Origin: a virus
DNA: 63,990 nt
Direction: 5' to 3' (one strand)
Virus record (IMG/VR): IMGVR_UViG_3300021960_000068
Location: 1-63,990 of that record
Shown piece after piece: positions 9,878-62,586 of this stretch. Below the pieces are notes generated by a model. It was given only the letters and a program-made list of their open reading frames with translations. It did no database searches and was not told where the DNA came from. The position numbers and the translations under genes were made by a program. The first letter of the stretch is position 1. Every line of letters starts with the position of its first letter.

Positions 9878-9878
9878 A

Positions 9879-10484: not shown

Positions 10485-10490
10485 AGTACT

Positions 10491-10703: not shown

Positions 10704-10717
10704 ATTTATTTTTATTT

Positions 10718-10749: not shown

Positions 10750-10753
10750 TAGT

Positions 10754-10825: not shown

Positions 10826-10832
10826 GGTGGTT

Positions 10833-12301: not shown

Positions 12302-12316
12302 AATTTATAATTTTAG

Positions 12317-45300: not shown

Positions 45301-46408
45301 GCTTACCGATAGTCGAGGAGCTGCTATATACTTTACAGCTAATTTTGATAATCTAACAGACAATATACCAAACAATTTTGGAAATATAAATTATAATTCT
45401 AATGGTTACAATACTAGTTTTTATTTAAAAGGATTAGTACAAAATTTATCTACACCAATAAACAACAGATCTGTTTGTGATCCTAACCAAGTAGGCTTTA
45501 TGGGTGCACCTGGTAGTCAAAATTCTGGTTTTGCAAATGAAAGACAAACAACAGGTGGTCTTACAACTGGCGCTTTTTACGTATATTTTAATCCTATGAT
45601 TTCTAAATCTATGAGCGGTATGTTTAACCCTGAAGAGATTAATTTTAGATACCAAATAGCTTATAGAGTAGATTCTAACGATACTTGGTCTACAGCTGTT
45701 GATATAAATGGTAACGCTGCAGACTATTCAGGAACATGGAAATATGATGGTCAGGGCACAGAAGGTTTAGATAATCAATACTATGTTGGTTCTAACTGGC
45801 TTTCTAGCGGTAGTCCTCAGGTAGTAGTTGCTAAAATTGAAAATAACTCTGCACCAAGGTATGCTGGTTTAGTTTATGCGTTTGATACTCCGGGCGAATA
45901 TAGAATTTTGCACTCAAATATGGCTTCTACTTTTGGAAAGCTAACACCTCAAGGAGATAATCAAAACGGCTTCAGTTGTACCGCATTTCCTTATTACAGT
46001 ACTGAAATGGAGCATGTATTTGAAACAGGTGATTTTTATTATCCAGGTAGTTCTGCTGGTGGCATTGATGATGCTATAGCTGCAGGTAGCGGAGATTCTA
46101 ACAATGTGTTTAGATATAGAATAAGCCAGGGAAGTTGTTCATCATTGCCAAGCTTAAATATTTATGCTAGAGAACCTGTAGCGAAATATGTAACACAATT
46201 GTACACGGATCAAGCTTTAAGCACTAAACTTCAATCTATATCGGGAGGAACTTCTTATGTAATTAGAAGAATGGAAAACTTAAGCTCAACTGCTAGCGCT
46301 TATTTAAATCCTGAATATACTAAAAATGGTACGTACCAAATATCTTTTCAAAACACTACAGGGCTCGTGAGCACAGGGCTAGACAGCCCAAAACCTTGTT
46401 ATTATTAA
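42314..46408 (+). CDS. Large neck/tail structural protein (P22 gp10-like 'stabilisation' type), N-terminal part
   Basis: 1364 residues. The start with MNKDLDARLIPQGEYRDAV and VGALENVLGN is a pattern I recall from very large tail or 'muzzle/stabilisation' proteins of crAss-like and marine podoviruses. The middle is beta-rich, and at about 970 a cadherin/Ig-like strand set (SFTVRVTDNGN) occurs. The usual C-terminal segment of this family (RNPESFAVYGYRKYF) is found instead in the next gene, so the protein appears split. It probably forms the DNA channel below the rings. Confidence 0.7.
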   Translation: MAEVKNAFIKSKMNKDLDARLIPQGEYRDAVNIQVSKSEGDDVGALENVLGNVSRADFEADSGVSNLTCIGYFVNEFDSNVYLFFTDYTDAYSTPIPTYDPNANNFIYQCSLASNPNPTTPATIKKLVEGSFLNFSTNRPIIGVNVLENFLFFTDNRNQPRKINISLANPNNVSNPTYYNIEENISVAKYYPYKPIDVIKETSTLGEYETTMYDAFSEFIPLNEGTPGGAPTPPNVNNPYYESNFPGDPQFLEDKFVRFSYRFKFSDGEYSLISPFTQICFIPKQDGYFLQGDEKQTFGSTIVKFMENKVNKIDLQIPLPSAGDQLLNNFHISEIDIIYKESDGLALQVVETIPIDASFANSVGSNTVFEYSYLSQKPYKTLPSSEITRVYDKVPVRALGQEIISNRVVYSNFQDKHTPPSFIKYQVGANEKYIPTNANSSKTSIEYPNHSLKQNRNYQVGFVLADRYGRQSTVILSNDQDPTSAGGFGADTVYLPYRPVNDSIDFLGDSLKISVNAVIQSNKNDINTPNQPGLYNGDSTSTDYNPLGWETYKIVVKQLEQEYYNVYTAGAMKGLPEDNTSDLNTSFITLVNDNINKVPRDLTEVGPQDKTFRSSVRLFGRVENNTANFSNIGNEQYLPNNTKLSFTTNAIEDLFDLFTIDTSTHAITSDQNPYHAFYKAESNPFVAEFITTQTTADQFGVIAESNQPYLIIENLAILETAPTISRLDLFYETSTVGDIDTLNQNAGPTSGGGVRNVNTAFQYTHFEDYATGTDVTNTFWFIDFGDNKIDPASAVLTSVTDNSGSGTNRYLEWTLVSLPDSEYKLQTNAYFYYSASPDNAGLQESYNFTFEVTTNQGISTVTGVSGLLQNSDPSIDNSNATTIQALVGQQSVLPNLTGKNGSNDQNSNTTTYTQNLTFSIVSSTGNGVYSVVNNNEVQNSNTQAAGTGSFTVRVTDNGNPTAKTVDKTFDIVFDKPNTNLLSYKAFPTLSGAINGTLTDSRGAAIYFTANFDNLTDNIPNNFGNINYNSNGYNTSFYLKGLVQNLSTPINNRSVCDPNQVGFMGAPGSQNSGFANERQTTGGLTTGAFYVYFNPMISKSMSGMFNPEEINFRYQIAYRVDSNDTWSTAVDINGNAADYSGTWKYDGQGTEGLDNQYYVGSNWLSSGSPQVVVAKIENNSAPRYAGLVYAFDTPGEYRILHSNMASTFGKLTPQGDNQNGFSCTAFPYYSTEMEHVFETGDFYYPGSSAGGIDDAIAAGSGDSNNVFRYRISQGSCSSLPSLNIYAREPVAKYVTQLYTDQALSTKLQSISGGTSYVIRRMENLSSTASAYLNPEYTKNGTYQISFQNTTGLVSTGLDSPKPCYY

Positions 46409-46410
46409 TT

Positions 46411-47844
46411 ATGGGAGCGGTAATAGAAGTAAAATATTTTAACTCTTTTTTACTAAGGAAGACAGTTGAAGCTGGAGCAACGGGTACAACACCTCCTATT
46501 TGGATGGGTAGCACAGGTATCCCGTCTGGTGATGGATCTTTTCCTGAAACCCCAATAGTTAATACAGATCAATCTAAAAGCTGGGTTGTAGAAGAAGCTC
46601 GTATACGTGGTGGTTATAACAATACAAATGTTGATTATGGCGTAAGAGCATATTTAGTAGATGAAGAACCAAATGGAAGTGTAAGAAGTAATGCGCTTAT
46701 ATATTCAGGTATATTTAATTCTAGAACTGGTATTAATGATACAAACGTTTTCAATGTTGCTGAGGATATAACTAAAGCCGCGGATCCAGCAAACGGTAGT
46801 ATACAAAAATTATATGCTGAAGATACAAACCTTATTATATTTCAAGAAAATAAAGTTAGTAGAGCGCTTATAGATAAAGATGCTATATATTCTGCTGAAG
46901 GCGGTGGAACTGTTACGTCTGCTAATTTAGTTATAGGTCAAATTGTTCCTTACGCTGGTAATTTTGGTATTAGTAGAAACCCAGAAAGCTTTGCTGTATA
47001 TGGCTATAGAAAATATTTTGTAGATAAAAACAGAAATGCTATACTACGCTTATCACAAGATGGTATTACTGAAATATCTAATTATGGTGTATATGATTAT
47101 TTTAGAGACGAACTTTCTAATTTAAACGTTGGTGATAAAGCTATAGGTGCTTGGGATGTATACACAAAACAATATGTAGTTAGTTTACAAGGTTCTAACA
47201 TAACACCGACAATATCAGGAGCGCAAGGTCAGTTTTCAGACACATATCAAACTTTAGCGTTTGATGAATCTGTACTTGGTTGGACTAGTAGATTTACTTA
47301 TAAACCAGAGCAAGTATTTAGTCTTAAGGCTAAGTTTTATAGTATAAATGATGGCGCTTTGTATGAACACAACTATCAAGAGTTTGGTAGCGATGATAAT
47401 AGGTCTAAGTTTTATGGCATATACTCTGATTCTAGGATTACATTTATATTTAACCCAAAAGTTAGCGCGTCTAAGGTATTTAAAACAGTAAACTACGAAG
47501 GCTCATCAGGTTGGGAAGTTTTTGAATTTAATGCAGCTAGAAGTTTTGATCAAAATGATACAGCTAATTTGGTTTATAGTTACGATGAAGGAAGTTATAT
47601 GCAAAACGGTATACAATATTACGCTGGGTTTTATAAAAAAGAAGGTAAGTATTTAGCTAACCTTATAAATAACAGTCCAGCTACATCTCAAGAAGTTGTA
47701 TACGGTGCAAGTGTTTCAGGTGTAAAAGGCTACTATGCAACTGTGACTATAAGAACAGATGATAGTACACAGGTGGCAGGAGCAGGTGGTAAGACTCGTG
47801 AGTTGTTTGCGGTATCTTCTGAATATGTAGAATCAAGTTATTAA
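46411..47844 (+). CDS. Large neck/tail structural protein, C-terminal part as a separate gene
   Basis: 478 residues from the ATG at 46411; the frame also opens at a TTG at 46396. It contains LIIFQENKVSRALIDKDA, RNPESFAVYGYRKYFVDKN and ISNYGVYDYFRDEL, blocks that I recall near the C-terminus of the single large protein in related phages. The frame differs from that of the upstream gene (2 nt between stop and ATG), so this is not simple read-through. It is either a natural gene split or the result of a frameshift. Confidence 0.65.
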   Translation: MGAVIEVKYFNSFLLRKTVEAGATGTTPPIWMGSTGIPSGDGSFPETPIVNTDQSKSWVVEEARIRGGYNNTNVDYGVRAYLVDEEPNGSVRSNALIYSGIFNSRTGINDTNVFNVAEDITKAADPANGSIQKLYAEDTNLIIFQENKVSRALIDKDAIYSAEGGGTVTSANLVIGQIVPYAGNFGISRNPESFAVYGYRKYFVDKNRNAILRLSQDGITEISNYGVYDYFRDELSNLNVGDKAIGAWDVYTKQYVVSLQGSNITPTISGAQGQFSDTYQTLAFDESVLGWTSRFTYKPEQVFSLKAKFYSINDGALYEHNYQEFGSDDNRSKFYGIYSDSRITFIFNPKVSASKVFKTVNYEGSSGWEVFEFNAARSFDQNDTANLVYSYDEGSYMQNGIQYYAGFYKKEGKYLANLINNSPATSQEVVYGASVSGVKGYYATVTIRTDDSTQVAGAGGKTRELFAVSSEYVESSY

Positions 47845-47849: not shown

Positions 47850-48260
47850 ATGGAATTAAATATACGTCGTCTTCAAGATGACGATTGGGAAACACTATGT
47901 TCTTGGTGGGATGCGTGGCCTGAATGGGTTAATCCACCTAAAGACTTTTTACCTGACAACGGTACTGGTGGGCTTATGGTTTACAAACATAATACACTTA
48001 TTGTTGCAGGATTTATATATTATACTAATTCTAAAGGAGCTTTACTGGAGTGGATAGTATCTAATCCAGAGTATAGAGAAGCTGACAGAAAACAAGCGTT
48101 AGAGCTTCTTATAAAAGGAGCTGAAAACGTTTGTAAAGCTAATGGTATTAAATATATGTTTAGTATAGGTAGATCAAAGCCTTTGATAGAAACACATCGT
48201 AAACTAGATTGGACAATAGATGAAAGTCCTTCTTATGAAATAACTAAAAAAATAAATTAA
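47850..48260 (+). CDS. GNAT-like acetyltransferase domain protein
   Basis: 136 residues. RRLQDDDWETLCSWW at the start, a central strand pair (GLMVYKHNTLIVAGFIYY), then LEWIVSNPEYREAD and a helix with ALELLIKGAENVCKANG follow the GNAT order, though the canonical Q/RxxGxG/A acetyl-CoA loop is not evident. Similar proteins are found among tail genes of marine podoviruses. It may modify a virion or host protein, or be a structural reuse of the fold. Confidence 0.6.
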   Translation: MELNIRRLQDDDWETLCSWWDAWPEWVNPPKDFLPDNGTGGLMVYKHNTLIVAGFIYYTNSKGALLEWIVSNPEYREADRKQALELLIKGAENVCKANGIKYMFSIGRSKPLIETHRKLDWTIDESPSYEITKKIN

Positions 48261-48261
48261 T

Positions 48262-48978
48262 ATGTCAGTAGTATCTGGAGCAATCGCCGCTGGTAAAGCT
48301 AAAAAAGCTGCACGAGCGGCAGGGAGAGAGCAGAAGAAAAACGAGGCTGAGCTAGAAAGTATAAAAAAATCTAGACAGGCTATTATAAATCCTTATGCTA
48401 GCACTAAAGATTTAAGTGATTTATCTAAAGATTTGAGTGGCCAGTTTTCTAATCCATACAACAACTTAGGAGTTGCAACTGCAGCTGCTGAAATACAAAT
48501 GGAACAGTCTGACATTGCTTTAGCAAATACTTTAGATACTATTAGAGCTACAGGTGCTTCTGCTGGTGGCGCTACTGCTCTTGCGCAAGCCGCTCTGCAA
48601 AGTAAAAAGGGTATTGCTGCTAGTATAGAACAACAAGAAGCACAAAACGAAAAACTTAAAGCTCAAGGAGAGCAAGCGTTGCAACAACAAAAAGTATCTG
48701 AACAGCAAAGGCTACAGTCTATTGCTATATCAGAAGGGCAAAGAGTTCAGTCAGCTGAAGCTGCTGGTAAACAGTTTGAATACCAAGCTCAAGAAGCTAG
48801 AACAAATGCAGATCTTGACAGAGCTTCAGGTATGATACAACAAGCTTCTGCTAATAAAGCTTCTGCTAACCAAGCAAGAGCTTCTGCTATATCTGGTATT
48901 GGAACTGGTATAGCTGGAGCTGTAGGAGCGGTTGCTGGCGGCGGCGGGTTTGCTCAAGGTGGAATATTCGGAGGATAA
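48262..48978 (+). CDS. Internal virion protein (small, Ala/Gln-rich)
   Basis: 238 residues with a membrane-like Gly/Ala C-terminus (ISGIGTGIAGAVGAVAGGGG) and an Ala/Gln-rich helical body (TAAAEIQMEQSDIALAN). T7 gp14-type internal virion proteins have this composition; they are ejected with the DNA to form a channel. It precedes two more ejection-protein candidates, the usual order. Confidence 0.62.
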   Translation: MSVVSGAIAAGKAKKAARAAGREQKKNEAELESIKKSRQAIINPYASTKDLSDLSKDLSGQFSNPYNNLGVATAAAEIQMEQSDIALANTLDTIRATGASAGGATALAQAALQSKKGIAASIEQQEAQNEKLKAQGEQALQQQKVSEQQRLQSIAISEGQRVQSAEAAGKQFEYQAQEARTNADLDRASGMIQQASANKASANQARASAISGIGTGIAGAVGAVAGGGGFAQGGIFGG

Positions 48979-48994
48979 TAATAAAAATATAAAT

Positions 48995-50584
48995 ATGAGT
49001 TATAGAAATCCACAAATAATCGTTGATCGCTCAGCAGAGATATATGCTCAAGGCGCTGCTAAAACAGGTGCGCTATTTGCTCAAGGCGTTGCAGGTTATT
49101 TTGAAAATAAAAATAAAACAGCAGCGGCTAAAAAAAAGAAAGACGACGCTTATAGACTTGGGTTAAATGGTATTGCTTTGAAAGCTGATGAAAGACTAGC
49201 TGATGCTACAAGCGAAATACAAGGTAGTACTTTATATGGAGATATTCAAGATCAAGCAAGAGCTAAGTTAGACGGTAGTGAGGGGCAGATAGGTATTATA
49301 GAAAAACAAGCTCAACTACGTTTAAATCCTGATTTAAGCAAAGAGCTATCAAAACAATACAGAAAAGATATAGCTGATTATCAAAAATGGGAAACTAATA
49401 TAGTTGACAAAGTAAGTAGTACAATGGCTGACTTAGAACCTATAAAAGATTTAACAGCTACAACTATCGGTGTTCCTGGTAAACAAGATTTTATAGGTGA
49501 AGGCAATGAAAAGTTTTCAAACTTTGCTGTTGCATACGCTTTAGATGGTAAGCAAGTGCCTGGAGTTGAATCAACAAGAGGTGTTGAAGGAGATTTAATT
49601 AAGTTTAATATAAATATAGATCCTAAAAACGAAACTATAAAAAAGTTTATAGAAAGTGGAGCTTTAAATGTTGAAGATTTAAAAGCTACAGAAGATGGTA
49701 AATATCAATTAAACTGGGAAAGAAATTTAAACAATTGGGACGGTGGTTTAATAGCTGACGTTCCAGATTCTATGGATATACAAAGCGCTTTAGAAGAAGG
49801 TGGTTTAATAAAAGACGGTGTTATAACTCAAGAGTTTACAACTGGTATTGACTATGATATAAAACCAATTAAAAATACTGGTTACCAACGTGTAACTGAA
49901 AAAATATTTTTTGATCCTAAACTAATTACAGAAAATCCTACTGTTCAAGCTGAGTTTAAAAAACATGCCGCTGGTTTTCTTGCTCCAGGTTCTTCACTAG
50001 ACGAGCAGATGTTAGGTTTAAGAAATAATTTTAATTACTCAGGAAGTAGACAAGATTGGCAGGATATGACGCCTGAAAAACAAGAAGAATATATTATAAC
50101 TGAATTAGAGGAGCAAGCTGTAGAACAAGCCATGCAAGGAGGCAAAGATTTTAAAGTTCAATTTGACCAAAAATCTGGTAAATATTTTACATACGGTAAA
50201 ACAACAGAGCGTAAAATATCTGATAGCAAAACAACTGATAGCAAATCTAGTAAAGCAGATATTAGTTACATTGAAAAAATAAAAATACCTATACAGTCCG
50301 GTCCACCTTTAGAATCAGGCCAAAGACCTATTGATTTAGACGAGTTAGAAAATGAGTTGAATACAGAAGGCTTTAGAGTTACTAAATCAGAAGAGGTTGG
50401 CCCAAGAGGTGTTAATAAAATTACTATAACTAAATCTATAGGTGGAGCTGATAACCAAGCTGTTATTACAGAGGAAATGACTCCTCAAGATATTAAACGT
50501 CAACTTGAATTAGTTGAAACTGGTAGCATGCCAGTTAAAACAGAAGAAGAAGATTTTAGTCTTTATAAAATACAAAACCAATAA
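48995..50584 (+). CDS. Internal virion / ejection protein, 529 aa
   Basis: I took MSYRNPQIIVDRSAE (ATG 48995) as the start rather than an upstream frame opening in the previous gene. Ala- and Lys-rich helices occupy the N-terminus (YFENKNKTAAAKKKKDDAY) and the rest is acidic alpha/beta. By position between the Ala-rich protein and the giant protein it should be an ejected internal protein, like T7 gp15. Confidence 0.62.
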   Translation: MSYRNPQIIVDRSAEIYAQGAAKTGALFAQGVAGYFENKNKTAAAKKKKDDAYRLGLNGIALKADERLADATSEIQGSTLYGDIQDQARAKLDGSEGQIGIIEKQAQLRLNPDLSKELSKQYRKDIADYQKWETNIVDKVSSTMADLEPIKDLTATTIGVPGKQDFIGEGNEKFSNFAVAYALDGKQVPGVESTRGVEGDLIKFNINIDPKNETIKKFIESGALNVEDLKATEDGKYQLNWERNLNNWDGGLIADVPDSMDIQSALEEGGLIKDGVITQEFTTGIDYDIKPIKNTGYQRVTEKIFFDPKLITENPTVQAEFKKHAAGFLAPGSSLDEQMLGLRNNFNYSGSRQDWQDMTPEKQEEYIITELEEQAVEQAMQGGKDFKVQFDQKSGKYFTYGKTTERKISDSKTTDSKSSKADISYIEKIKIPIQSGPPLESGQRPIDLDELENELNTEGFRVTKSEEVGPRGVNKITITKSIGGADNQAVITEEMTPQDIKRQLELVETGSMPVKTEEEDFSLYKIQNQ

Positions 50585-50593: not shown

Positions 50594-53500
50594 ATGGCTA
50601 AATACAAGATTGGTACGGATCTATATGATTTACCTGAAGAAAAAGTAGAATCTTTTTTGTCTAAATATCCTGATGCTGTAGAAGTTACAGAAGAAATACA
50701 AACTGACCCTACGGAGGGAAAGACAAACGGTGCTGTGGAAACGGATGCGGCTGTAGCACCAGTAACAACTCCAAGCAGAGCATCCATGATTGTAGATGCT
50801 CAACCAGAGAGTACGGTATCAGACTCGGCAGATACTTCTGGGGAATTACAAGCAAATGATCAAGGTTATTTTAGACAAGAAAGAAAAAAAGGTAGATCAG
50901 CAGATTCTATTAGAAGAGATACATACGAAGAAGGTTCTTTAGCTGCTATAGAATTTGATAAAAAATCTGATGAAAGAAAACAGCAAGCTACGTTAGCAAC
51001 TAAAGAAATACAAACAGCGCAAGAAAATATACCTCAAAAAGATATACAATCGCAGCAAGCAAACATATATTTTGATTTACCAAGTATAGCCCCTAGAAAT
51101 AAAATAGATTATGTCTATCAAGGTGTTTATGGTGGCCAATCTAGAAAGCCTATGTTTGAATCTGATGAAGATTATACTACTTATTTAAAGGATAAGCTAG
51201 GTGATAAGTATGATCAATATTTAGAGTTTAATAAAACAGGTTCTATAACGCCTAATGGTACTCAAGAAAATGAAGACGAATTAAGATCATTACAAGTAGA
51301 TGCTAGAAATCAAATATCTGCTAAAATAAGTAATGACATGTTATATAATGTTCCTGAAGATGTGCAGCGGTACATGACATCAAGTCCTGTTTTTGCCAGT
51401 GGTAATACTCTGGAAGAACAAAAATTTGCTATAGATGAATTAGGAAACAACATAGGTCAGATGAGAGTCAACTATGCTGAAGGAGTTAAAGCTTATAACG
51501 AAAACGCTGTTCCGTTAATAGATCAAATAAAATCTATAGATAACACTATAAAAGATTTAGGTGGAACTAATAAAGGTTTACAATTTTATGAAGCTGGTCA
51601 AGTAGGGGGTTTAGACTCTCCTAAACGTATACAGCAGTATAATGATTTAATAGAACAAAGAAATTCTTTATTAAACCAATATAATGAAGGAGGTTTCAAT
51701 GTTTTATACGATGGTTTAATATCTCAAGAAAGAGTAATAAATCAAGAAGCTAAAAATTATATTAACCTAGTTAATACTAGCAGAAATAAAATAGTAGATT
51801 CTGAATTATTAAAAGAAGCTATATCAAAAGATTACTCCGCGACAGCTAGAGTTGGTAGAGCTTTTGATGAGTTTTTTTTACAGAGCGGTAGAAATGTTTT
51901 AGATCTTAGCGCTGAAATAGGTTTACAAGCTTATAAATTCTCTTTAATGCCTCAATACAGGCCAGCTATAGATGATGTTATAAGCGTTGTTCAGCAGAAC
52001 AATAAAAATTATAACTTAGAAATGGATGCTAAAAGAAAGCAACTTCCAACAGCTCCAACGTTAGACGATATAGGTGAAAATAATATAGGATTTTTTGATT
52101 GGTTTTCTGTAGCCATGCAAGATAACTCTCCGACTATAGCTACGACTTTTATACCAGGTGGTTTAGCAGTTAAAGGTGCTGCTGGTGTTAAAGCAGCTGT
52201 TAAAACTGGAAGCTACGCTGCTAAAAAAGCCGCATTACAAAACCAAAAAAAGCTTTGGTTGGCTGGTAAAAGAACATTACAAACAGCTTTCTTTGTTGCT
52301 GAAACAGGTGGTCAATATGGTAGGCTGCAAACAGAAGAAGGTGATAGAGAAAAACAAATATCTTTATTACAATCTCAACTAAACGAAACTGAAAGTTTAG
52401 AAGATAGAACAAAAATTTATAATAAAATTGAAGAATTAAAATCTGTAGAAGATTATTCTTTATTTCAAAAAGCCTTTACTTCTTTTGGATATGGAACTAC
52501 AGCTACACTAGCCGAAACTTTTGGTACTTTAAAGCTTATACAAGGCGGTAAAGCTTTAGCTAAAAACATAGGTACTCAAGCCGCTAAAAAAGAATTTTAT
52601 TCTAAGCCATCTACATTTGCTGCTGGCATCATAAGCAAAGCAGTTCCTGGTCTAAGCCCTTTGGTTAAAGGTGTTGCTGTAGAAGAAATGGAAGAAACAC
52701 TTACGCAAGTAAGTCACAACATGTTTGACATGTTTGTTTTAGGTGAAGACAAAAATTTAATAGATGGTTTAGATAAAGATTTTTTTGCTAATGTAGCTGT
52801 TACTAGCTTTGGTATTATGTCTCCTAAGACTACCGGCAATGTTGTTAACATTATTAAAAATGAATTTAGAACTAAACAAGAAGTAGTAGATAATCAAAAC
52901 TTAGCTGTAGAATTAATTGAATTAAACGAGGCTATACCTGCTAGTGCAGAAGACGCTAAAGTTATAAGAGAAAGAAAAAGAAACATATTAGAAGAGCTCG
53001 CTTTAAACGACGCTGTCAGTCTTCACAAACTTAGGTACATGACACCTGTTCAAATAGAAGAGGTTGCTGATTTAAATAGACAAAAACGTAAGTTAAAAGA
53101 GCAAATGTTTTCTCTTGGTAGAACAGGTGAAAGATCTAAAGTTCAAGAGCAAAAGCAAGCTGAAATAAACAAAGAGCTTTATGCTATAGAAAGAAAACAA
53201 CAAGAGATTTTAAATTCAAAAGAAAGAGCTAATAGACAAAAAGCTAAACAAGTTTCTGAGGAATTAGGAGATAGCTTTGCTAATGCAGACGCTGCTTACT
53301 GGTATGGTTTTAATGATTTTTATAATGAAATTGCTATGGCCCAAATGGGTGATGGTGATTTTATAAGCGCTACTGCAGAAGTAAATAATGAATTAGGTAT
53401 ACCTGTTTTAGATTATAAAAATTTAGACGAAGAGTTAAAAAAATATAATGAAACTGATAGAGCTGCTATCAAACTTGGTTTACTAGGCGAAATAAATACT

Positions 53501-56500
53501 GAAACAGGTGAGGTAATACAGCCTCCTGTATATGCCATGCAGATTGGTAAAGATATTATAATAAATCAACCTCTTATAGATCAACAAATAGGTTTAGCGC
53601 CTACAAGCGGCGGTGCTAAATACGCTGCTCTGGCTCCTCTTGAAGAACTTTTTCACCTTAATAACAAGGGTAAGAAAATGAAATTCGATGGTGATGCTAA
53701 GCTTGCCGTTGATGAAGCTATTAAAGTATTAGAAAATAAACTAGAGCTAGGCGAAATATCTCAAGAAAACTTTAACGACTTAACTGAAAGGTTTAAACTT
53801 TATAAAGATGGTGAGACATTTGACGTGGAAGAACTCATAGCGCAGATGAACAACGCTGTTGCATTAGGCGATATAAAACTTAGCGATATAGCTAGTACAC
53901 CATCTTTAAAATCTTTTTTAAACGGAGCTATACGTAATGTATTTGGAGATCAAAGCTGGATGCTTAATCTTAAAACATCAGATGATGTGTTTAATTTTAT
54001 TAAAAACTTTCAAGCTGATATTCAAGGAGAGGTAAGTCTTCAACTACCAGACGAAGATGATTCTACTATTAAACAATCTAAAATATACCAAGAAGTAGAA
54101 ACATTTAAAGATGATTTAGTAAATGAACAAACTAAAGATGCTACTGCTTTTTTAATTGCTGATAAACTAGAAAACGAAGTTGATCGTAGATTAAAATTAG
54201 ATGTTGATCCAGAGACCAAAGAAGATATAGTTAGAAACTTTTTGTTCGATGATAAAAGAGGTTTGCTTGGGTTATTACAAAAATACGATCCAGCTAGAAA
54301 CGAAAGTATAATGGGTTACTTAAATTCAACTACGCCTGGCGGTAAATTACTAGACGCTAGACTTATTGAGTTTTATCAAAATGATCCTAGATACAATCAA
54401 ATAATTCAGTCAACTACAGATGAAGCTGTTCAACGTAAAGCCGAAAGAGTAACTTCAGAAGACACCACAGAGACAACTGCTGAAGATGTTACAGATAAAC
54501 CTTTAGCCAAAAAACCTACTGAAACTGTAGTATATAGTGACGAAGTTTTAAGTAGCGTAGGCGCGGCTAACGCTGAAGCGCTAGAAAATAGAATTACAAA
54601 AGAAATACAAAAAGCGTTTAAAGGTCAAGATATCTCTAGGTTTAAAGAGCTAAAAGATATACCAAAAAACATAACACAGTTATACGCTGATATGTTTGGA
54701 CTTTCAACTGTAGACGGTATCGTTGATTTTAAAAGAAACTTTCCTAAGCTAGACGAAGGAGCTGTTAGAAAAATACGTACGTTTTTAAATAGAAATGCTG
54801 AAGATGATTTTCGTAGGTTTCCAAAAACAAAAGGTGACGATAAGAAAGCTACTGGTGTAAAGCAAACTAAGCTAGGTAAAGTTATGTATGATGCTAATGA
54901 TAATTTTATTGGCACATTAAAACAATACAAAGACATACTTCAAGGTAAAAATATAACTCTTCCAGCTTACAATGGTGAGATGATTGAGTTTAATAGGTTA
55001 GATAAAGACGGTAACAAGTTACCATTATATAGAGACTCACAACACTATAAAGCAGCGTTAAAGTTTCATATACAAAATCGTATAGCTGAAGATGTTATGC
55101 CTGATAAAGCTAAGAGATTAAGCGCTGGACTTAAGTTTAGTAAAAAAGCATTGATAGATGTTACTCAGGCTAGAGATATTAACGCGGTAGCAAAATTACT
55201 AGGTATATCTAAAATTACTGTAAATGATAACAATAGAGTTGAAAAACAAAAGCAAATGGAAGAAGCTATAGTAGCTGCTAAAATTCCTAGTTGGATGTTT
55301 GAGGGTTCTAAGTTTGGTAATTTTGCTAGAAGAAAAGTTAACGGTGTTAGAGTAGATTTACCCGCTAGAGGTGGTTTATATTACGGCGGTAAAGATCCAG
55401 CGTATCAAAGAGCTTTAGGTTTAGCAAAACAAAACGATGCTGATTACAATATAAAACCCCCTAAAAGAGTTAATATTAAAAAAGCTTTTACTAAAGAGGG
55501 ACAACAACAAGGTAAAGATAATTTAAAAGCTTTAGAGTTTTTTGGTAATAAATTAGCTGATGCTGTAGCTAAAAATCAAATGCCACTAGAAATAGCTTCA
55601 TTATTTATTTCTTCTGGTTATCAAGCTACAAATGGTATTATAAAAATAGCCGCACCATTTAAATACTTTTCTAAAGTTTTTAAATACGGAACTACACCAA
55701 AACATAGTAAAGGTGAAAAGTTTAGAGAAGAACACAATCCTCCTGCTTCAGTAATTGGAGCCACATTAATATATGGTATAGCAACTAATAATATGAGTAC
55801 TGTAATGCCTAATATTAAAAACAACTATTATCAAACTAAACTTTCTAAAGCTGATGATCAAAAACTAGATGACGCTAAGTTAGATGCTACGTTACCTGTT
55901 GGAACAACTATAGCAGATAACCCTGCTATTAGATTTATTGAAGCTGGTATTGATCTTAATAGTATTGTTAATTACGAAACAGGTCAGACTATAGCAGAAG
56001 AGCTAGGTGTTGCTTTAAAATCTAGTGATGTAAATGTAGATACTGTATTTGAACAGAATAAAATACTAAAAGAAGTATTAAGTGGAGATATAACAGCTAA
56101 AACAGGGCAGGATAGATTAAATGAATTTGCTAAATTAAAATCTATACCTAAAGCTGGTGTTGGTAATAATAACGAAAATAATACTATTAAGTTTAGCAAG
56201 CAAGTACCTAATCAAGAAATACTTGATAACTTAGGTAATGCAGATCAGGCTATGGCTAATGCTAGAAACCCTGAAGCGCCTGTTAAAAAAATACGTGTAT
56301 TTGATTTTGATGATACATTAGCTAAATCAAATAGTCAAGTTCTTTACGAACTTTCCGATGGCACAACAGGTAAATTAAACGCTACTCAATTTGCGGAAAG
56401 ATCTAGCGAACTACAAGAGCAAGGAGCTGAGTTTGATTTTTCAGAGTTTAGTAAGGTTATTGATGGCAAAAAAGGGCCTGTGTTTAAAGCTATAGAAAAC

Positions 56501-58828
56501 ATAGTTAAAGCTAGAGGTGCTGAAGACGTGTTTATACTTACAGCTAGACCTGCTAACGCTGCTGGTCCTATAAAAGAATTTATGGACGCGCTTGGTGTTA
56601 ACTTACCTATAGAAAATATTGTAGGTTTAGGCGATGGTAAGGCGGAAGCTAAAGCACGTTGGATGACGGGTAAAGCTGCTGAAGGTTACAACGACTTTTT
56701 CTTTGTAGATGATGCGTATAAAAATGTTAAAGCAGTTCAAGATGCGTTAGATGTGTTTGATGTTAAATCTAAAACACAACAAGCTAAAATTAAGTTTAGT
56801 AAAGCATCTGATCTTGATAAAGGTTTTAATAACATACTAGAAAACAAAACCGGTATAGCATCTGAAAAAGAATACGGTAGAGTAAAAGCTGAAGTAGCTG
56901 GAGCTGGTAAAGGTAGATTAAATTTCTTTATACCACCGTCAGCTGAAGACTTTACAGGTTTATTATACGCTACGCTTGGTAAAGGCAAACTAGGTGATCA
57001 ACAAATGGCGTGGTATAAGACTCATTTGTTAAACCCATATGCTAGAGCTATGAATGAATTATCATCTGCTCGTATAGCTATGATGAATGATTATAAGTCA
57101 TTAAAGAAACAATTAGAAATAGTACCTAAAGACTTACGTAAGAAAGTTCCAGGCGAACCGTTTACGCGTGAGCAAGCTGTACGTGTGTACATATGGAATA
57201 AACAAGGTATGGATATACCTGGAATAAGTAAAAAAGATCAAGCTGATCTTAGTAAGTATGTAATTGACAACGCTGAGCTACAGGTATTTGCTGATAGACT
57301 TATCGCTATACAAAAAGGTGATCAGTACGCTGGGCCTAAAGAAGGTTGGCCAGCTGGTACAATAACCACTGACATGCTTGAAGGTCTTAACACTACAAAA
57401 CGAACTAAGTACTTAGAGCAATGGCAGCAAAATGCAGATGTTATATTTTCTGAAAAGAACCTAAACAAACTTGAAGCTGCTTATGGTAAACCATATCGTA
57501 AAGCTTTAGAGAATATGCTACAACGTATGAAGTCTGGTCGTAATAGAAACTTCCAAGGCGATACGTTAACAGGTAGAGTTACTGATTGGCTTACAGGTAG
57601 TATTGGTACAATAATGTTCTTCAACACAAGATCAGCAATACTTCAAACTATATCTAGTATTAACTTTGTTAACTTCACTGATAACAATATACTAGCTGCG
57701 GGTAAAGCTTTTGCAAATCAAAAACAATACTGGTCTGACTTTATGACGCTTATGAACTCTGACTTCTTAAAAGAACGTCGTGGTGGTTTACGCATCAACG
57801 TTAACGAAGCTGATATTGCAGACATGGCAAAAAGAGGTGGAGCTAGAGGTGTTATAAATAAACTACTTGAGTTTGGTTTTACACCTACACAGATAGCAGA
57901 TAGCTTTGCTATCGCCTCTGGTGGCGCTACGTTTTATCGTAATAGAATAAAGTCTTTGAAAAAACAAGGTATGACAGATGCTGAGGCTGAAGCTCAAGCG
58001 TTTGTAGATTTTAGAGAGACAGCAGAAGAGTCACAACAGTCGTCAAGACCTGATAGAATATCAATGCAACAAGCCGGTCAATTAGGACGTCTTGTATTGG
58101 CTTTTGCTAACACGCCAGCTCAGTATGCTAGACTTATAAAGAAAGCTGCTAGCGATCTTAAGAATGGCAGAGGTGATGCTAAGACTAATATAAGTAAGAT
58201 TATATACTACGGTGTTGCGCAAAACTTATTGTTTAATGCTTTACAACAAGCTTTGTTTGCGTTTGCTTTTGATGATGATGAAGAAGATACAGACGAGCAG
58301 CAAAAGAAATATGTTAGCATAGCTAACGGTATGATGGACTCACTTCTAAGAGGTATGGGGTTAGGCGGCGCTGTAGTTTCAGTAGGTAAAAATGCTATTA
58401 TACGTATTATAAACGAGATGGAAAAGAAACAACCTAAGCTTGAGAAAGTAGGTTATGAACTTACTAAACTATCTCCACCTATATCTGCTAAGCTATCACG
58501 TGTAAACCAAGCCGCGAGGTCTTACCAATGGGATAAAAAAGAAATGATGGAAAAAGGCTGGAGCTTAGATAACCCAGCTTACTTAGCAGGTGCTAATGTT
58601 ATAGCAGCACTTACCAACATACCGCTTGATAGAGCTGTAAAGAAAACTAATAACGTAGTACAAGCTACATCACAAGATTTAGAAACTTGGGAACGCTTAG
58701 CGTTACTAGGTGGTTGGCAAGACTGGGAAATCGGTATTGACGAGGAAAAACCTAGTAACAAACCGCAACCTAGAAAAACAAAACCAAGATCTAGAAAAAC
58801 TAAAAAACGTAAAACCACAACAAGATAA
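50594..58828 (+). CDS. Giant internal virion polyvalent protein with HAD-like domain
   Basis: 2744 residues, the longest gene. A Lys/Gln-rich N-terminus is followed by long helical stretches (about 750-1000 and 1200-1400). At about 1895-2070 there is a HAD-type phosphatase/kinase-like domain: VFDFDDTLA, the Thr-bearing VFILTARP and later the acidic FFFVDDAYKN. The last ~650 residues are a helical conserved block (TGSIGTIMFFNTRSAILQ; FANTPAQYARLIKKAAS) as in large marine phage ejection proteins, then an Arg/Lys-rich tail (RSRKTKKRKTTTR). It is probably packaged in the capsid and injected. I saw no polymerase DxDGD-type motif, so there is no sign of a virion RNA polymerase. Confidence 0.72.
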   Translation: MAKYKIGTDLYDLPEEKVESFLSKYPDAVEVTEEIQTDPTEGKTNGAVETDAAVAPVTTPSRASMIVDAQPESTVSDSADTSGELQANDQGYFRQERKKGRSADSIRRDTYEEGSLAAIEFDKKSDERKQQATLATKEIQTAQENIPQKDIQSQQANIYFDLPSIAPRNKIDYVYQGVYGGQSRKPMFESDEDYTTYLKDKLGDKYDQYLEFNKTGSITPNGTQENEDELRSLQVDARNQISAKISNDMLYNVPEDVQRYMTSSPVFASGNTLEEQKFAIDELGNNIGQMRVNYAEGVKAYNENAVPLIDQIKSIDNTIKDLGGTNKGLQFYEAGQVGGLDSPKRIQQYNDLIEQRNSLLNQYNEGGFNVLYDGLISQERVINQEAKNYINLVNTSRNKIVDSELLKEAISKDYSATARVGRAFDEFFLQSGRNVLDLSAEIGLQAYKFSLMPQYRPAIDDVISVVQQNNKNYNLEMDAKRKQLPTAPTLDDIGENNIGFFDWFSVAMQDNSPTIATTFIPGGLAVKGAAGVKAAVKTGSYAAKKAALQNQKKLWLAGKRTLQTAFFVAETGGQYGRLQTEEGDREKQISLLQSQLNETESLEDRTKIYNKIEELKSVEDYSLFQKAFTSFGYGTTATLAETFGTLKLIQGGKALAKNIGTQAAKKEFYSKPSTFAAGIISKAVPGLSPLVKGVAVEEMEETLTQVSHNMFDMFVLGEDKNLIDGLDKDFFANVAVTSFGIMSPKTTGNVVNIIKNEFRTKQEVVDNQNLAVELIELNEAIPASAEDAKVIRERKRNILEELALNDAVSLHKLRYMTPVQIEEVADLNRQKRKLKEQMFSLGRTGERSKVQEQKQAEINKELYAIERKQQEILNSKERANRQKAKQVSEELGDSFANADAAYWYGFNDFYNEIAMAQMGDGDFISATAEVNNELGIPVLDYKNLDEELKKYNETDRAAIKLGLLGEINTETGEVIQPPVYAMQIGKDIIINQPLIDQQIGLAPTSGGAKYAALAPLEELFHLNNKGKKMKFDGDAKLAVDEAIKVLENKLELGEISQENFNDLTERFKLYKDGETFDVEELIAQMNNAVALGDIKLSDIASTPSLKSFLNGAIRNVFGDQSWMLNLKTSDDVFNFIKNFQADIQGEVSLQLPDEDDSTIKQSKIYQEVETFKDDLVNEQTKDATAFLIADKLENEVDRRLKLDVDPETKEDIVRNFLFDDKRGLLGLLQKYDPARNESIMGYLNSTTPGGKLLDARLIEFYQNDPRYNQIIQSTTDEAVQRKAERVTSEDTTETTAEDVTDKPLAKKPTETVVYSDEVLSSVGAANAEALENRITKEIQKAFKGQDISRFKELKDIPKNITQLYADMFGLSTVDGIVDFKRNFPKLDEGAVRKIRTFLNRNAEDDFRRFPKTKGDDKKATGVKQTKLGKVMYDANDNFIGTLKQYKDILQGKNITLPAYNGEMIEFNRLDKDGNKLPLYRDSQHYKAALKFHIQNRIAEDVMPDKAKRLSAGLKFSKKALIDVTQARDINAVAKLLGISKITVNDNNRVEKQKQMEEAIVAAKIPSWMFEGSKFGNFARRKVNGVRVDLPARGGLYYGGKDPAYQRALGLAKQNDADYNIKPPKRVNIKKAFTKEGQQQGKDNLKALEFFGNKLADAVAKNQMPLEIASLFISSGYQATNGIIKIAAPFKYFSKVFKYGTTPKHSKGEKFREEHNPPASVIGATLIYGIATNNMSTVMPNIKNNYYQTKLSKADDQKLDDAKLDATLPVGTTIADNPAIRFIEAGIDLNSIVNYETGQTIAEELGVALKSSDVNVDTVFEQNKILKEVLSGDITAKTGQDRLNEFAKLKSIPKAGVGNNNENNTIKFSKQVPNQEILDNLGNADQAMANARNPEAPVKKIRVFDFDDTLAKSNSQVLYELSDGTTGKLNATQFAERSSELQEQGAEFDFSEFSKVIDGKKGPVFKAIENIVKARGAEDVFILTARPANAAGPIKEFMDALGVNLPIENIVGLGDGKAEAKARWMTGKAAEGYNDFFFVDDAYKNVKAVQDALDVFDVKSKTQQAKIKFSKASDLDKGFNNILENKTGIASEKEYGRVKAEVAGAGKGRLNFFIPPSAEDFTGLLYATLGKGKLGDQQMAWYKTHLLNPYARAMNELSSARIAMMNDYKSLKKQLEIVPKDLRKKVPGEPFTREQAVRVYIWNKQGMDIPGISKKDQADLSKYVIDNAELQVFADRLIAIQKGDQYAGPKEGWPAGTITTDMLEGLNTTKRTKYLEQWQQNADVIFSEKNLNKLEAAYGKPYRKALENMLQRMKSGRNRNFQGDTLTGRVTDWLTGSIGTIMFFNTRSAILQTISSINFVNFTDNNILAAGKAFANQKQYWSDFMTLMNSDFLKERRGGLRINVNEADIADMAKRGGARGVINKLLEFGFTPTQIADSFAIASGGATFYRNRIKSLKKQGMTDAEAEAQAFVDFRETAEESQQSSRPDRISMQQAGQLGRLVLAFANTPAQYARLIKKAASDLKNGRGDAKTNISKIIYYGVAQNLLFNALQQALFAFAFDDDEEDTDEQQKKYVSIANGMMDSLLRGMGLGGAVVSVGKNAIIRIINEMEKKQPKLEKVGYELTKLSPPISAKLSRVNQAARSYQWDKKEMMEKGWSLDNPAYLAGANVIAALTNIPLDRAVKKTNNVVQATSQDLETWERLALLGGWQDWEIGIDEEKPSNKPQPRKTKPRSRKTKKRKTTTR

Positions 58829-59363: not shown

Positions 59364-59394
59364 AAGGGCCCTCAAACGAGAGCCCTTTTTTTTT
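59364..59394. terminator. Convergent terminator between the two arms
   Basis: GGGCCCTC-AAAC-GAGAGCCC forms a stem with one internal mismatch, followed by eight T on the plus strand and an A/T-rich flank on the other side. It ends all rightward transcription and overlaps the stop of nrdA (59393), so it may also stop leftward transcripts arriving from that side. Confidence 0.85.
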
Positions 59395-61159
59395 ATCCGT
59401 CACAAGCGGCGCAGTCAGGATCCATAGCTTGTTGAGCAATGTCACCGCGTAGTACTGATTCAGTACGCATATAATATAAGGTCTTGATACCTTTCTTCCA
59501 AGCATCCATGTGAACCTGGTTAATCCACTTAGGTGTAGCCTCTGAAGGAAACGCTAGGTTTAAACTAACTGATTGATCAATATACTGTTGGCGTATACCA
59601 GCTTGATTAACAAGCTCTAGTTGATTAATCTCTTTGAAAGTTTTAAACACGTTTTTAACTTTGTCAAAGCCTGTAGTTTCTAAATCATCTTGCTCAGATA
59701 ATACTACTAGCTTTTTATTAACATAACCGTAGTCATCTAACGGTAGGTCTTGTATGCTACCACCATCAGCCATTATCTTATCCCAAATTTCTTTAGTGTT
59801 TAATCCAGCTTTTCTTAATACTTTTTCGAGCTCTCTGTTCTTCCTAATGAACGTACCCTTCGCGCTTTGTTCAGTGAAAACATTAGCGGCCCAAGGCTCA
59901 ATACCAGGACTAACATTACCGGCAAGCTTACTATTAGACACAGTAGGAGCAATAGCCCTAAGATGAGTGTTACGAAACCCAGTGCCAACGCACCACAAAG
60001 GTTCACCATAAAGTTCAGCGAGATCTCTACTCGCTCGCTCAGATTCGATTTTAATCTGGCTAAATATTCTTCTAGTTTCATATTGTGCTGTTAATCCCTC
60101 GAAGGGTATTCCATTTTTTTGTAGGTACGTGTGCCAGCCCAGTACTCCAAGGCCAAGCGCTCTACCTTTTTCCGCTGATCTAACTGAATTTGCAAAGCCA
60201 ACTTTGCCTTTCGCTTTTTGTATAAACTCTTCAAGTACTCCGTCCAAGAACCAAATAGCATCGTATATAAGGTTTGTATTCTTCCACTCTTCATATCTTG
60301 ATATATTTAAACTTGATAAGCAGCAAACAAAGCTATGGCTTTCATCTGTGTGTAATGTAATCTCACTACAGATATTTGTCATGTGTACTTTTAAAGCATT
60401 GTCTTTGTATGCTTTTGGATTTGCTTTGTTAGTATTTCCTTTAAACAAGATATACGGTTCTCCAGTTGCTTTTCGTTTTCTAATAAGTTTACTCCATCGA
60501 GCTCTAGCGTCCGCATCTCCCTGTTCAAGACGTCGCATAAACTTATCACCAACAACTGCGCATTGATGTAGGTTAAGCGACTGTCTGTTAACATCTCCTT
60601 TAGGTTCTCTGATCTCAAGCCACTCTTCAAAATCATCGTGCTCAATGTTAATATTAACTGAGGCAGCTCCTCGTCTAACCGATCCTTGATTTGTAGCAAG
60701 TATTGTTGAGTCATATATTTTGCAGAAAGGTACGACTCCGTCTGATGTTCCATTGCCTGTAATTTTAGCGCCAGCGGGTCTGATTTGATTTATACCAATG
60801 CCAACTCCACCGCCATGCTTAGCGAGCAACATCATCTCTAAGTTCTTACCTCCTATATCATGTATACTATCTGCTACATCAATACCAAAGCAAGAAATAG
60901 GTAACCCACGATCAGTACCTGTGTTACTAAGTACAGGGCTAGCAAGGTTAAGCCAACCTTTCCAGATATAATTAAAAAACGTTTCACTTAGCTCTGGTCT
61001 GTCAAGTCTACGCGCAACTGTCTTGCATACTCGCTCGTATGCATCTCTTGGGGTTTCGTCGTAGAGTAAATATCCCCCGGATATAGTTTTCTTGTATACG
61101 TCTGTGTCTCCCCACTCTGGGTAGTCAACTCCTTTTTTCCATTCATTATTCCACATCAT
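59393..61159 (-). CDS. nrdA: Ribonucleotide reductase class I, large subunit
   Basis: 588 residues. The redox motif NICSE (about 262-266), a later CVGTGF and the C-terminal CAACDG tail, which is the mobile CxxC pair reduced by thioredoxin/glutaredoxin, identify a class I alpha subunit. The Tyr pair in LYYMRTES near the end fits the radical-transfer path. It is shorter than bacterial NrdA (about 760) and has no ATP-cone, so it should lack dATP inhibition, common in phage enzymes. It makes dNDPs with NrdB, encoded upstream at 61618-62586. Confidence 0.93.
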   Translation of the reverse strand: MMWNNEWKKGVDYPEWGDTDVYKKTISGGYLLYDETPRDAYERVCKTVARRLDRPELSETFFNYIWKGWLNLASPVLSNTGTDRGLPISCFGIDVADSIHDIGGKNLEMMLLAKHGGGVGIGINQIRPAGAKITGNGTSDGVVPFCKIYDSTILATNQGSVRRGAASVNINIEHDDFEEWLEIREPKGDVNRQSLNLHQCAVVGDKFMRRLEQGDADARARWSKLIRKRKATGEPYILFKGNTNKANPKAYKDNALKVHMTNICSEITLHTDESHSFVCCLSSLNISRYEEWKNTNLIYDAIWFLDGVLEEFIQKAKGKVGFANSVRSAEKGRALGLGVLGWHTYLQKNGIPFEGLTAQYETRRIFSQIKIESERASRDLAELYGEPLWCVGTGFRNTHLRAIAPTVSNSKLAGNVSPGIEPWAANVFTEQSAKGTFIRKNRELEKVLRKAGLNTKEIWDKIMADGGSIQDLPLDDYGYVNKKLVVLSEQDDLETTGFDKVKNVFKTFKEINQLELVNQAGIRQQYIDQSVSLNLAFPSEATPKWINQVHMDAWKKGIKTLYYMRTESVLRGDIAQQAMDPDCAACDG

Positions 61160-61332
61160 TTAAAGAATAGCAATGCGTATGCTATCATCACGTTTAAATT
61201 AACTAATACTAAGTTCCATTGCTTTGCAACCCAAACTTGTGGTGTACAAAACAAACCTGCTAGAAAGTATATTACTACACCAGGTGTTTCGGGTAATAAA
61301 TGGGGAGCAGTTATAAAAAAACCAGTCCCCAT
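61156..61332 (-). CDS. Small membrane protein between nrdB and nrdA, 58 aa
   Basis: I chose MGTGFFITAP at 61332, after the upstream stop at 61343. It has two hydrophobic spans (GVVIYFLAGLFCT and LVLVNLNVMIAYALLFF). The stop overlaps nrdA's ATG (ATGA). A longer frame exists to 61431 but would overlap the coiled-coil gene heavily. Function unknown. Confidence 0.6.
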   Translation of the reverse strand: MGTGFFITAPHLLPETPGVVIYFLAGLFCTPQVWVAKQWNLVLVNLNVMIAYALLFFK

Positions 61333-61342
61333 ATAACCAAGC

Positions 61343-61582
61343 CTATTTGCTAGCCTCTCCGTAGGAGAAAGCTTCCTCTTCTTCACTAGGCTTTTCAGCC
61401 ACTTTCTTTTTAAGCTCTGCGATTGCATCATCGTAACCTTCTAATTGTTTTAATATTTCTTGTTGACCAAATATCATGGTCTTTATATTCTCTAATTCAT
61501 TTATAATTTGCTGCAGTACGTTTGTTGTAGCAGCCATACGTTTTTCTAACGCATCAGTTCTACTCTGTTTCTGACCTTTCAT
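61343..61582 (-). CDS. Coiled-coil protein, 79 aa
   Basis: A long heptad-like helix (ALEKRMAATTNVLQQIINE; GYDDAIAELKKKVAEK) and an acidic tail (SEEEEAFSYGEASK). It lies between nrdB and nrdA and could be a small scaffold. No family recognised. Confidence 0.58.
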   Translation of the reverse strand: MKGQKQSRTDALEKRMAATTNVLQQIINELENIKTMIFGQQEILKQLEGYDDAIAELKKKVAEKPSEEEEAFSYGEASK

Positions 61583-61617
61583 ATAATTGTTCTATTAATT
61601 CTTGCTCATTAATTAGT

Positions 61618-62586
61618 TTACCAAATGTCTTCGAAGTCCTCACCTTCGTTAGCTTTCGAATAATCCGTTGGCCGAACCGCGAAAAAATCAGTATGAGTGA
61701 GCCCCCCGGTAAGATGATAGAACCAATCAAGATTATCCGCTGCAGCCTTGTCATACGTGAAGTACGAATCAAGGTCAGTGTAACCAAGCTCAACCAGTTT
61801 TTCATTTGTTCTTTTCTTTATAAAGTGTTTTAAATCATTTGACTTGATACCTTCAATGTCACCCATCTCAAACATCTTATCTATATACTTAGTCTCAAGA
61901 TCAACCATAGTCTCTGCTGCTTTAATAATATCTTTTTTACAAAGATCTTTTAGTTGATTATTCTCTGCGCACATATCACGATATAGTTTACAACCCATTT
62001 TACTGTGTAGACTTTCATCACGCACAGACCATTTCATCTGTTGGCCTATTCCTTTAAGCATGTTACGCAGCTGAAAAGAATATAGAACAGCGAAAGCAGA
62101 ATACAAACTAACCCCTTCAGCGAAGGCGGAAAAAACAGCAAGGCTACGAGCAATGCCACGTGGGTCATCACCGTTGTAACCAACCAGGTTATCAAATCTA
62201 TTTGCTGTTGCTTCTTCGTGGAGAAACGCTTCGAAGTTTTCAAGCCCAAGTGTTTCATTTAAATAACTATATGCGACAGCGTGAATTGTTTCTTGCGAAC
62301 CAAACATCATTGCCATTTGTTGTATCTCGTGTTTAGGAAACCAACCAACTACTTTCTGCGTCCAATAATCAGACACAGCACATTCAGTCTGAGCAAAGCC
62401 TAGTAGGATATTTCCCACTAGGTTTTTTTCTTTGTCTGTTAGTTTCTCTTTCCAGTCTTTAACATCGCCTTGCATTGGTATCTCGGTGTGTAACCAAAAA
62501 GCCTGTGCTTGCTTAAGCCAACCTTCAGTATAGTACTCTGGGTACTCAAACGGTTTATACGCTATGCGCTCGTCAAACAGTCCCAT
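61618..62586 (-). CDS. nrdB: Ribonucleotide reductase class I, small subunit
   Basis: 322 residues. The diiron motifs are ETIHAVAY (ExxHxxxY, with the radical Tyr kept), AEGVSLYSA and RDESLHSKMG (the second Glu/His set). It provides the radical cofactor that activates NrdA. The C-terminus EDFEDIW matches the acidic peptide that docks the beta subunit on alpha. The start shares a base with the upstream gene's stop (TAATG). It is transcribed before nrdA in the same leftward unit. Confidence 0.94.
   Translation of the reverse strand: MGLFDERIAYKPFEYPEYYTEGWLKQAQAFWLHTEIPMQGDVKDWKEKLTDKEKNLVGNILLGFAQTECAVSDYWTQKVVGWFPKHEIQQMAMMFGSQETIHAVAYSYLNETLGLENFEAFLHEEATANRFDNLVGYNGDDPRGIARSLAVFSAFAEGVSLYSAFAVLYSFQLRNMLKGIGQQMKWSVRDESLHSKMGCKLYRDMCAENNQLKDLCKKDIIKAAETMVDLETKYIDKMFEMGDIEGIKSNDLKHFIKKRTNEKLVELGYTDLDSYFTYDKAAADNLDWFYHLTGGLTHTDFFAVRPTDYSKANEGEDFEDIW

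Follow-up and report, generated by a model that had tools for sequence, protein, structure and literature searches.

The IMG/VR virus record IMGVR_UViG_3300021960_000068, whose 63,990 nt were analysed as a whole and are called the window here, contains a giant virion protein gene at positions 50594..58828 (+ strand), assigned on the basis of its open reading frame (ORF), synteny and relatives. It forms one open frame, with an ATG at 50594 and a stop at 58828, and its product of 2744 amino acids (aa) comprises, from front to rear, a zincin-type metallopeptidase domain, a segment with an unproved resemblance to region 2 of sigma-70 factors, a region with an EHxxP motif, a HAD phosphatase domain, a helical C-terminal block and a basic tail. 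Taking all our results together, we consider it fairly probable that this is the largest, last-encoded polyvalent ejection protein of a short-tailed phage, in which a constant rear is combined with swappable cargo.

The HAD domain occupies residues about 1898-2065 (56285..56788, + strand), as judged from its motifs, its match to family phrog_415 and its fold. A preliminary description of this 2744-residue frame, made from the letters alone, had already located HAD motifs in it, and they lie where they had been placed, with VFDFDDTLA at 1902-1910, VFILTARP at 1979-1986 and FFFVDDAYKN at 2035-2044. All four motifs of the superfamily (I-IV; DxDxT, T/S, K and DD) are present, and residues D1904, D1906, T1908, T1983, K2020, K2027, D2039 and D2040 were invariant in 75/75 unique relatives, reduced from 84 HADs. 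Mutated catalytic Asp residues in homologues, which the description had named as evidence that would speak against it, were therefore not encountered. Because the catalytic residues are identical in all these relatives, we expect an active enzyme, and the domain is very likely a working HAD phosphatase. Nor are the motifs a product of chance, since phrog_415 matched residues 1889-2066 with E values of 1.4e-5 for the whole protein and 2.7e-7 for the isolated domain. In the AlphaFold2 model, the HAD core showed block-mean pLDDT values of 75-87.

The HAD domain is followed by a constant helical block (residues 2074-2727; 56813..58774, + strand), delimited from relatives and the predicted model, and the protein ends in a basic tail, recognised by charge count in the last 20 residues (58766..58825, + strand). 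Both had been anticipated by the preliminary description, and both were confirmed. The model is nearly all helix from about residue 2096 onward, with pLDDT below 50 in much of the final 200 residues, and relatives of the block are encoded in at least 589 IMG/VR stretches; in 55/72 relatives, Lys plus Arg outnumbered Asp plus Glu by 6 or more within the last 20 aa. Comparison of the block with Pfam gave nothing convincing.

To follow the HAD domain through this family, we sampled the best 80 of the at least 589 stretches, obtaining 81 frames with the block, 72 of them (69 distinct) with more than 1200 aa before it; some contigs are shared with our first sample of relatives. The domain was present in 35 of these 72 giants, with all four motifs inside the matched stretch in 34 of the 35, and absent from the other 37. 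The HAD-less giants are mutually similar over the 330 residues preceding the block in 31 of 37 cases. In 16 of these 31, the EHxxP motif precedes the block by 112-173 residues, and in 28 of the 35 HAD-bearing giants by 324-498 residues; within 400 aa before the block, the remainder of the 31 had either EH without the Pro (11) or no EH (4). Because the distance from EHxxP to the block is longer in HAD-bearing giants, the HAD is, on this sequence comparison, an extra domain between the EHxxP region and the constant block. In contigs L194 and L173, other inserts, resembling PD-(D/E)XK nucleases by eye, occur in the HAD's place just before the block. The giant gene lies in two or more frames in L006, L010 and L074, through either an assembly error or a real split.

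On a tree built from 75 rows of the C-terminal core by a quick method, HAD presence and absence required 6 changes, at least 5 of them forced by well-supported branches, as compared with about 25 for shuffled labels. The nearest neighbour of the window protein in the core, L144 (97% identical there), has no HAD domain. Strong homology to L144 and L150, both HAD-less, begins within a zone at residues 2041-2074 (56714..56815, + strand), starting at aa 2046 for L144 and 2041 for L150 and continuing to the end at 89% and 86% identity, respectively. Upstream of these points there were only short or low-identity matches (25-50%), and the best front match to L144 covered residues 15-111 (61%); the genes downstream in L150 showed about 93% DNA identity. 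As far as these alignments go, most of the front, about 2000 residues, is exchanged among near relatives, with a border near the end of the HAD, which is therefore an exchangeable module. The front could represent an early tool set whose make-up varies among close relatives, as expected of arms-race cargo.

The preliminary description had reported no recognised domain in residues 1000-1850. This did not hold up, because aligned relatives show a zincin-type domain, the sigma-like segment (unproved) and the EHxxP region there; the first two of these, and the absence of the HAD from 37 of the 72 giants, had been missed. The alignments concerned held 49 (A3) and 50 (A4) sequences after thinning, and A8 and A9 retained 48 and 42 of those 50.

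The zincin-type metallopeptidase domain spans residues about 960-1090 (53471..53863, + strand), as seen in the relatives' alignment. Residues E1018, H1021 and E1080 were identical in 50/50 aligned relatives, and position 1017 was His in 45/50 and Glu in 5/50, the latter being the window and 4 others with the form EELFH. The HExxH motif with a Glu in the following helix was thus intact in 45/50, whereas the window has an altered site, E1017-E1018-L-F-H1021 with E1080. The motif lay 814-1164 residues before the HAD in 63/70 giants (reduced from 79), in very different surroundings, and occurred in 62/72 frames of the C-terminal-block sample. This latter sample, with some contigs in common with the first, contained the EELFH form in 6/64 domains and neither form in 3/64. 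Matches to the zincin fold were weak, with VIA structure comparison giving Z values of about 3.6-4.4 to lethal-factor chains over residues 895-1152, and so were those to snapalysin-type proteases, which accounted for 2/8 PDB sequence matches (E 1.7). The HExxH motif with a downstream Glu is the pattern of polyvalent-protein metallopeptidases, for which self-cutting or attack on host proteins has been proposed (PMC5512222). Since the zinc ligand is altered in a conserved way, metallopeptidase activity has likely been lost or changed in the window. The domain could cut the modules apart in most relatives; such a role is doubtful in the window subgroup because the first zinc ligand is a Glu. In MW202828 (L016), the giant protein encoded at 741-12320 carries the HExxH motif twice, with matches from residues 1615 and 2500.

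The segment resembling sigma-70 region 2 covers residues about 1155-1264 (54056..54385, + strand) and was detected by profile comparisons. In VIA comparison of a model of residues 878-1904, only two rows reached Z values of 5 or more (6.2 and 5.0). Both lie over residues about 1155-1275, and in both the matched structure is Thermus RNA polymerase chain F, which we take to be the sigma subunit. Profile A5 (residues 1140-1420) gave nine matches to PDB sequences, six of them sigma factors (best E 0.0031). Profile-profile comparison of 47 sliding windows over residues 878-2744 with 30 cellular sigma factors produced a sole peak at 1123-1297 (74 and 78%), with values of at most 5.3% for non-overlapping windows and at most 1.6% for reversed sigma factors. 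When the comparison was focused on the segment, the 30 sigma factors gave 81-91% in one register, including the sigma motif FD...F.TYA, and the TetR (28 proteins) and TPR (13 proteins) controls remained below 0.5%. Four of six subfamilies ranked the segment region first on their own (3.9, 31, 78 and 17%). Among NCBIfam models, TIGR02937 was the one matched by most A5 members (3/50, best 5.1e-5); sigma models made up 11 of the 25 shown. The segment is also carried by the HAD-less L012 and L013, and its hidden Markov model (HMM) matched 44/72 frames; the giants of the four isolates do not clearly have it. From these profiles, homology of the segment to sigma-70 region 2 appears slightly favoured.

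That the similarity is instead a chance likeness of short helices has close to an even chance, and several results speak for it. Sigma HMM scores of single sequences, with some match in 35/50 giants, were no higher than those of reversed decoys (best 4.5 vs 4.1), and the best match of the window protein was outside the segment; 15 of the 35 best matches fell inside the expected 10.8% of the length, although this is not an independent count because the sequences are related. The 11 primary-like sigma factors alone gave only 22-30% in the sliding windows and 9-36% in the focused comparison. The window's own subfamily was the one with 3.9%, and its score, 22.2, equals the off-target best of the two failing subfamilies. 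A realigned profile yielded one sigma factor (the ECF factor SigE, E 0.22) among seven PDB matches, and the VIA Z of 6.2 is a value that meaningless matches also reach. The window protein had no sigma match at the segment in Pfam or NCBIfam, and Pfam Sigma70_r2 matched 2/50 members (best E 0.016). Out of 10 chosen members, L009 (TIGR02937 positions 4-150 of 165), L069 and L079 matched sigma models and seven did not, and no curated cut-off was reached wherever one was shown for these 10. The aromatic WW pair of region 2, which opens the -10 element, was not seen in the aligned block. Against chance likeness stand the single register shared by 30 sigma factors, the low values of the reversed, TetR and TPR controls, the agreement of four subfamilies, and the predominance of sigma factors among the PDB matches and their share of the NCBIfam models. 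With regard to the region 4 helix-turn-helix, no window outside the segment clearly matched full-length sigma factors. Binding of the segment to RNA polymerase is rather unlikely. A separate 252-aa sigma-like gene is encoded elsewhere in the window (5371-6129, - strand), and exceeds the Sigma70_r2 cut-off together with its frame neighbours (25.1 vs 24 bits).

For the HAD phosphatase, polynucleotide 3' ends are our leading guess as substrate, made tentatively. Its fold was assessed by VIA as a second-look structure comparison, in which the leading rows were HAD phosphatases (model residues 17-179, Z from 10.1 downward), with the 3'-phosphatase of T4 Pnkp (5uj0) ranking first (Z 10.1, 120 residues, 2.6 A) and Pnkp1 (4xru) second (Z 9.7, 123 residues, 2.8 A). 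Furthermore, phrog_415 is shared with T4 PseT, whose phosphatase half it matches at E 3e-24. On the other side, other HAD folds follow close behind, namely Nir2 (Z 9.0) and NagD-like and other HAD phosphatases (8.0-8.7), and the DNA 3'-phosphatase model TIGR01664 scored 13.1 bits in the window member, as compared with a cut-off of 107.65; this curated cut-off is thus far away, and the best E across eight members was 5.4e-4. A direct HMM comparison with PseT was marginal (2.7 bits). Because of this small lead of the fold, the sub-cut-off TIGR01664 score and the marginal PseT comparison, we call the HAD a phosphatase with an unproved 3'-end substrate. The HAD profile gave an unconvincing best match among PDB sequences to a baculovirus protein (E 0.033), and a tblastn search of the domain against 50,697 phage records, from which very near records were possibly excluded, returned no match at E <= 1. 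Foldseek comparison of both models with the PDB gave none at E <= 0.001, perhaps because the models contain several domains.

The preliminary description had spoken of a phosphatase/kinase-like activity. The phosphatase part agrees with the fold, phrog_415 and the motifs, but the kinase part falls because the [AG]x4GK[ST] P-loop is absent from the whole 2744-aa protein; phrog_505, the full-length T4-type polynucleotide kinase (PNK) family, had no match in the record either, and we discard the kinase reading. That no kinase partner was found with this pattern and family also counts against our preferred reading; RNA ligase was not searched for.

The HAD could instead be a phosphatase of small nucleotides or proteins, for example one that takes away a defence signal or undoes host phosphorylation, which we regard as a realistic but tentative alternative. 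Catalysis by HAD folds is broad in scope; in VIA, Z values of 7-8.5 were obtained for acid-phosphatase, NagD-like and phosphoserine-phosphatase structures, and 7.1 for the Legionella effector Ceg4. The NCBIfam model for HAD-IA v3 matched 6/8 members (best 1.3e-5), with the window member under the cut-off, Pfam DUF2608 was over its cut-off in the window member (23.7 vs 22.6 bits), and motifs I and II lie farther apart than those of T4 PseT (about 75 vs 42 residues). However, the top two folds and the best phage family all belong to the polynucleotide 3'-phosphatase type.

Two further parts of the front were defined. The EHxxP region spans residues about 1418-1853 (54845..56152, + strand; predicted model and relatives' alignment) and is confidently predicted, most block means being above 85; E1713 and H1714 were conserved in 45/50 relatives, and P1717 in 44/50. 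Family searches with residues 1300-1420 and 1420-1860 gave no family that stood out. Residues 621-874 (52454..53215, + strand) are weakly similar to elemoA gp21 (25.9% identity, E 8e-3). Across the whole protein, Pfam gave two matches only, both far under the cut-off, and across 17 giants just three marginal families at E <= 0.01. In the viral structure library (BFVD), the sole match under 0.001 to the 878-1904 model was A0A218MLT5 from an uncultured virus (E 2.3e-11, 958 columns), named UDP-N-acetylglucosamine kinase and perhaps a relative with another enzyme. One A5 member has a LysM domain in its middle region (Pfam E 1.2e-9).

The gene is the final one of the virion module. The terminase and portal families place the virus with short-tailed phages of Flavobacteriaceae, terminase identity being 63.5% to MW202828, 46% to Flavobacterium elemo phages and at most about 38% to Cellulophaga phages. 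Positional counterparts are annotated as 'structural protein' in elemoA (gp21, 3694 aa) and phi38:1 (gp101, 1691 aa) and as 'virion structural protein' in phi13:2 (gp127, 1990 aa); the counterpart in MW202828, a 3859-aa gene, bears an unrelated automatic name. Immediately upstream, genes of 136, 238 and 550 aa (47850..50584, + strand) are placed like gp98-gp100 of phi38:1, their counterparts, which are annotated as structural, and their order and size recall the small and middle ejection proteins of T7 and P22. Because the gene is the last of the virion module and its positional counterparts are annotated as structural, the terms 'ejection-protein candidate' and 'polyvalent', both from the preliminary description, fit this giant. 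Several unrelated domains are joined in one polypeptide (the HAD and the zincin-type domain, the latter with an altered site in the window) that is encoded among virion genes. We conclude that the product is very probably a virion ejection protein.

Several points weigh against this interpretation. The designation of the counterparts as structural is the wording of sequence records only, the similarity of the window protein to the isolates' giants is weak (best E 8e-3), and the protein has a single, weak hydrophobic stretch (residues 2588-2606, mean hydropathy 1.35). An internal scaffold or tape-measure-like protein that never leaves the particle, its HAD and zincin folds serving structurally only, would suit a giant, helical product of the last virion gene whose zincin site is altered in the window subgroup, but it is improbable given the invariant HAD catalytic residues, the absence of the HAD from 37/72 giants, and a front largely replaced next to a retained C-terminal block, which suits cargo better.

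Under the preferred reading as an ejection protein with exchangeable cargo, and by analogy with T7 gp16, the C-terminal block and basic tail would get the protein packaged and take it through the portal and across the inner membrane of the host, and the front would enter the cytoplasm along with the first DNA. There the HAD may take off terminal phosphates. The likeliest targets are the 3'-phosphates of RNA or DNA ends that host nucleases have produced, or the phosphates on small nucleotides, and the enzyme would thereby repair or reset phosphate ends, while the sigma-like segment may engage RNA polymerase. More specifically, a virion-delivered sigma-2-like domain, in one chain with a protease-type domain and exchangeable enzymes, might grip the clamp of the host RNA polymerase, a proposal that we consider unlikely as it stands; the polymerase would then be held at the entering genome, so that transcription could start at once and perhaps pull the DNA in.

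Turning to the rest of the record, its first and last 303 bases (1-303 vs 63688-63990) are 98.35% identical, forming an inexact terminal repeat, and the viral contig is therefore probably near complete. A tblastn search of the whole 2744-aa protein against the same 50,697 phage records gave no match at E <= 1e-5, with the same possible exclusion of very near records. A search of bacterial genomes for the host gave 11 matches, all to metagenome-assembled contigs of 3.4-42 kb under various taxon names; gene-bearing contigs L100-L110 had been binned as Aliivibrio, Woesearchaeota, Ilumatobacteraceae and other metagenome-assembled genomes. Farther upstream in the virion module, at 42314-47844, two overlapping frames, 1364 and 482 aa long, correspond to distinct parts of virion family phrog_14478; elemoA and phi38:1 have a single gene there, suggesting a split gene or a frameshift. 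The window also encodes a GroEL-type chaperonin (24193-25749; phrog_5725, E 5.3e-134), the large and small subunits of ribonucleotide reductase (59393-62586, - strand) and a tRNA-Gln (10752-10825).

Polyvalent proteins and modular ejection proteins are already known, and the real novelty, if true, would be the sigma-like part. No virion-delivered sigma factor is announced in the titles or abstract openings of the papers listed by our searches, and we found no paper on a HAD combined with an ejection protein. For the short-tailed relatives of Flavobacteriaceae phages, little is known of how the genome is protected and started up during the first minutes, and the family offers a natural experiment, in that most of the cargo of one probably delivered protein varies among near relatives, about half of which have the phosphatase. 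Should the sigma-like segment indeed bind RNA polymerase, takeover of transcription would proceed from the particle itself, and a virion-packaged sigma-like hijacker would exist in a large family of uncultured viruses, the one found in at least 589 IMG/VR stretches; it would serve by other means the purpose of N4's packaged polymerase.

Among known systems, the giants of Elemovirus, Pachyviridae and Pervagoviridae phages occupy the same place in the virion module, but the DxDxT pattern was not found in those of elemoA, MW202828, phi13:2 and phi38:1, and BLAST gave no match between these four and the C-terminal block. The virion RNA polymerase of phage N4 (gp50) is, according to PMC5512222, also a giant protein of the virion, has a zincin domain and acts in transcription at entry; N4 gp50 is a T7-like polymerase itself, whereas the window protein has at most a sigma-2-like segment. 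A PF00940 search of the record for a polymerase gave no match, and its controls were silent too, so that no conclusion follows. The HAD domain shares with the phosphatase half of T4 PseT/Pnkp the fold, the motifs, phrog_415 and the best structural match, and differs in having no kinase half, in its longer motif I-II stretch and in its location inside a giant virion protein. The ejection proteins of T7 form a series of 196, 747 and 1318 aa (PMC8954989). Like gp16 of T7 and P22, as described there, the window protein is, by order and size, the last of a putative small-middle-large series (238, 550 and 2744 aa here) and has an enzymatic front, a conserved rear and a basic C-terminus. Unlike T7 gp16, it is twice the size and has no transglycosylase recognised by Pfam and no clear transmembrane helix. 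Finally, the main text of the work on polyvalent proteins (PMC5512222) does not contain the words haloacid, dehalogenase, PNK, polynucleotide kinase or sigma, and the zincins of those proteins differ from that of the window, where the first zinc ligand is Glu. Nevertheless, the window protein resembles polyvalent proteins in being giant, multidomain and mosaic, in being encoded among virion genes, and in carrying the recurrent zincin-like metallopeptidase.

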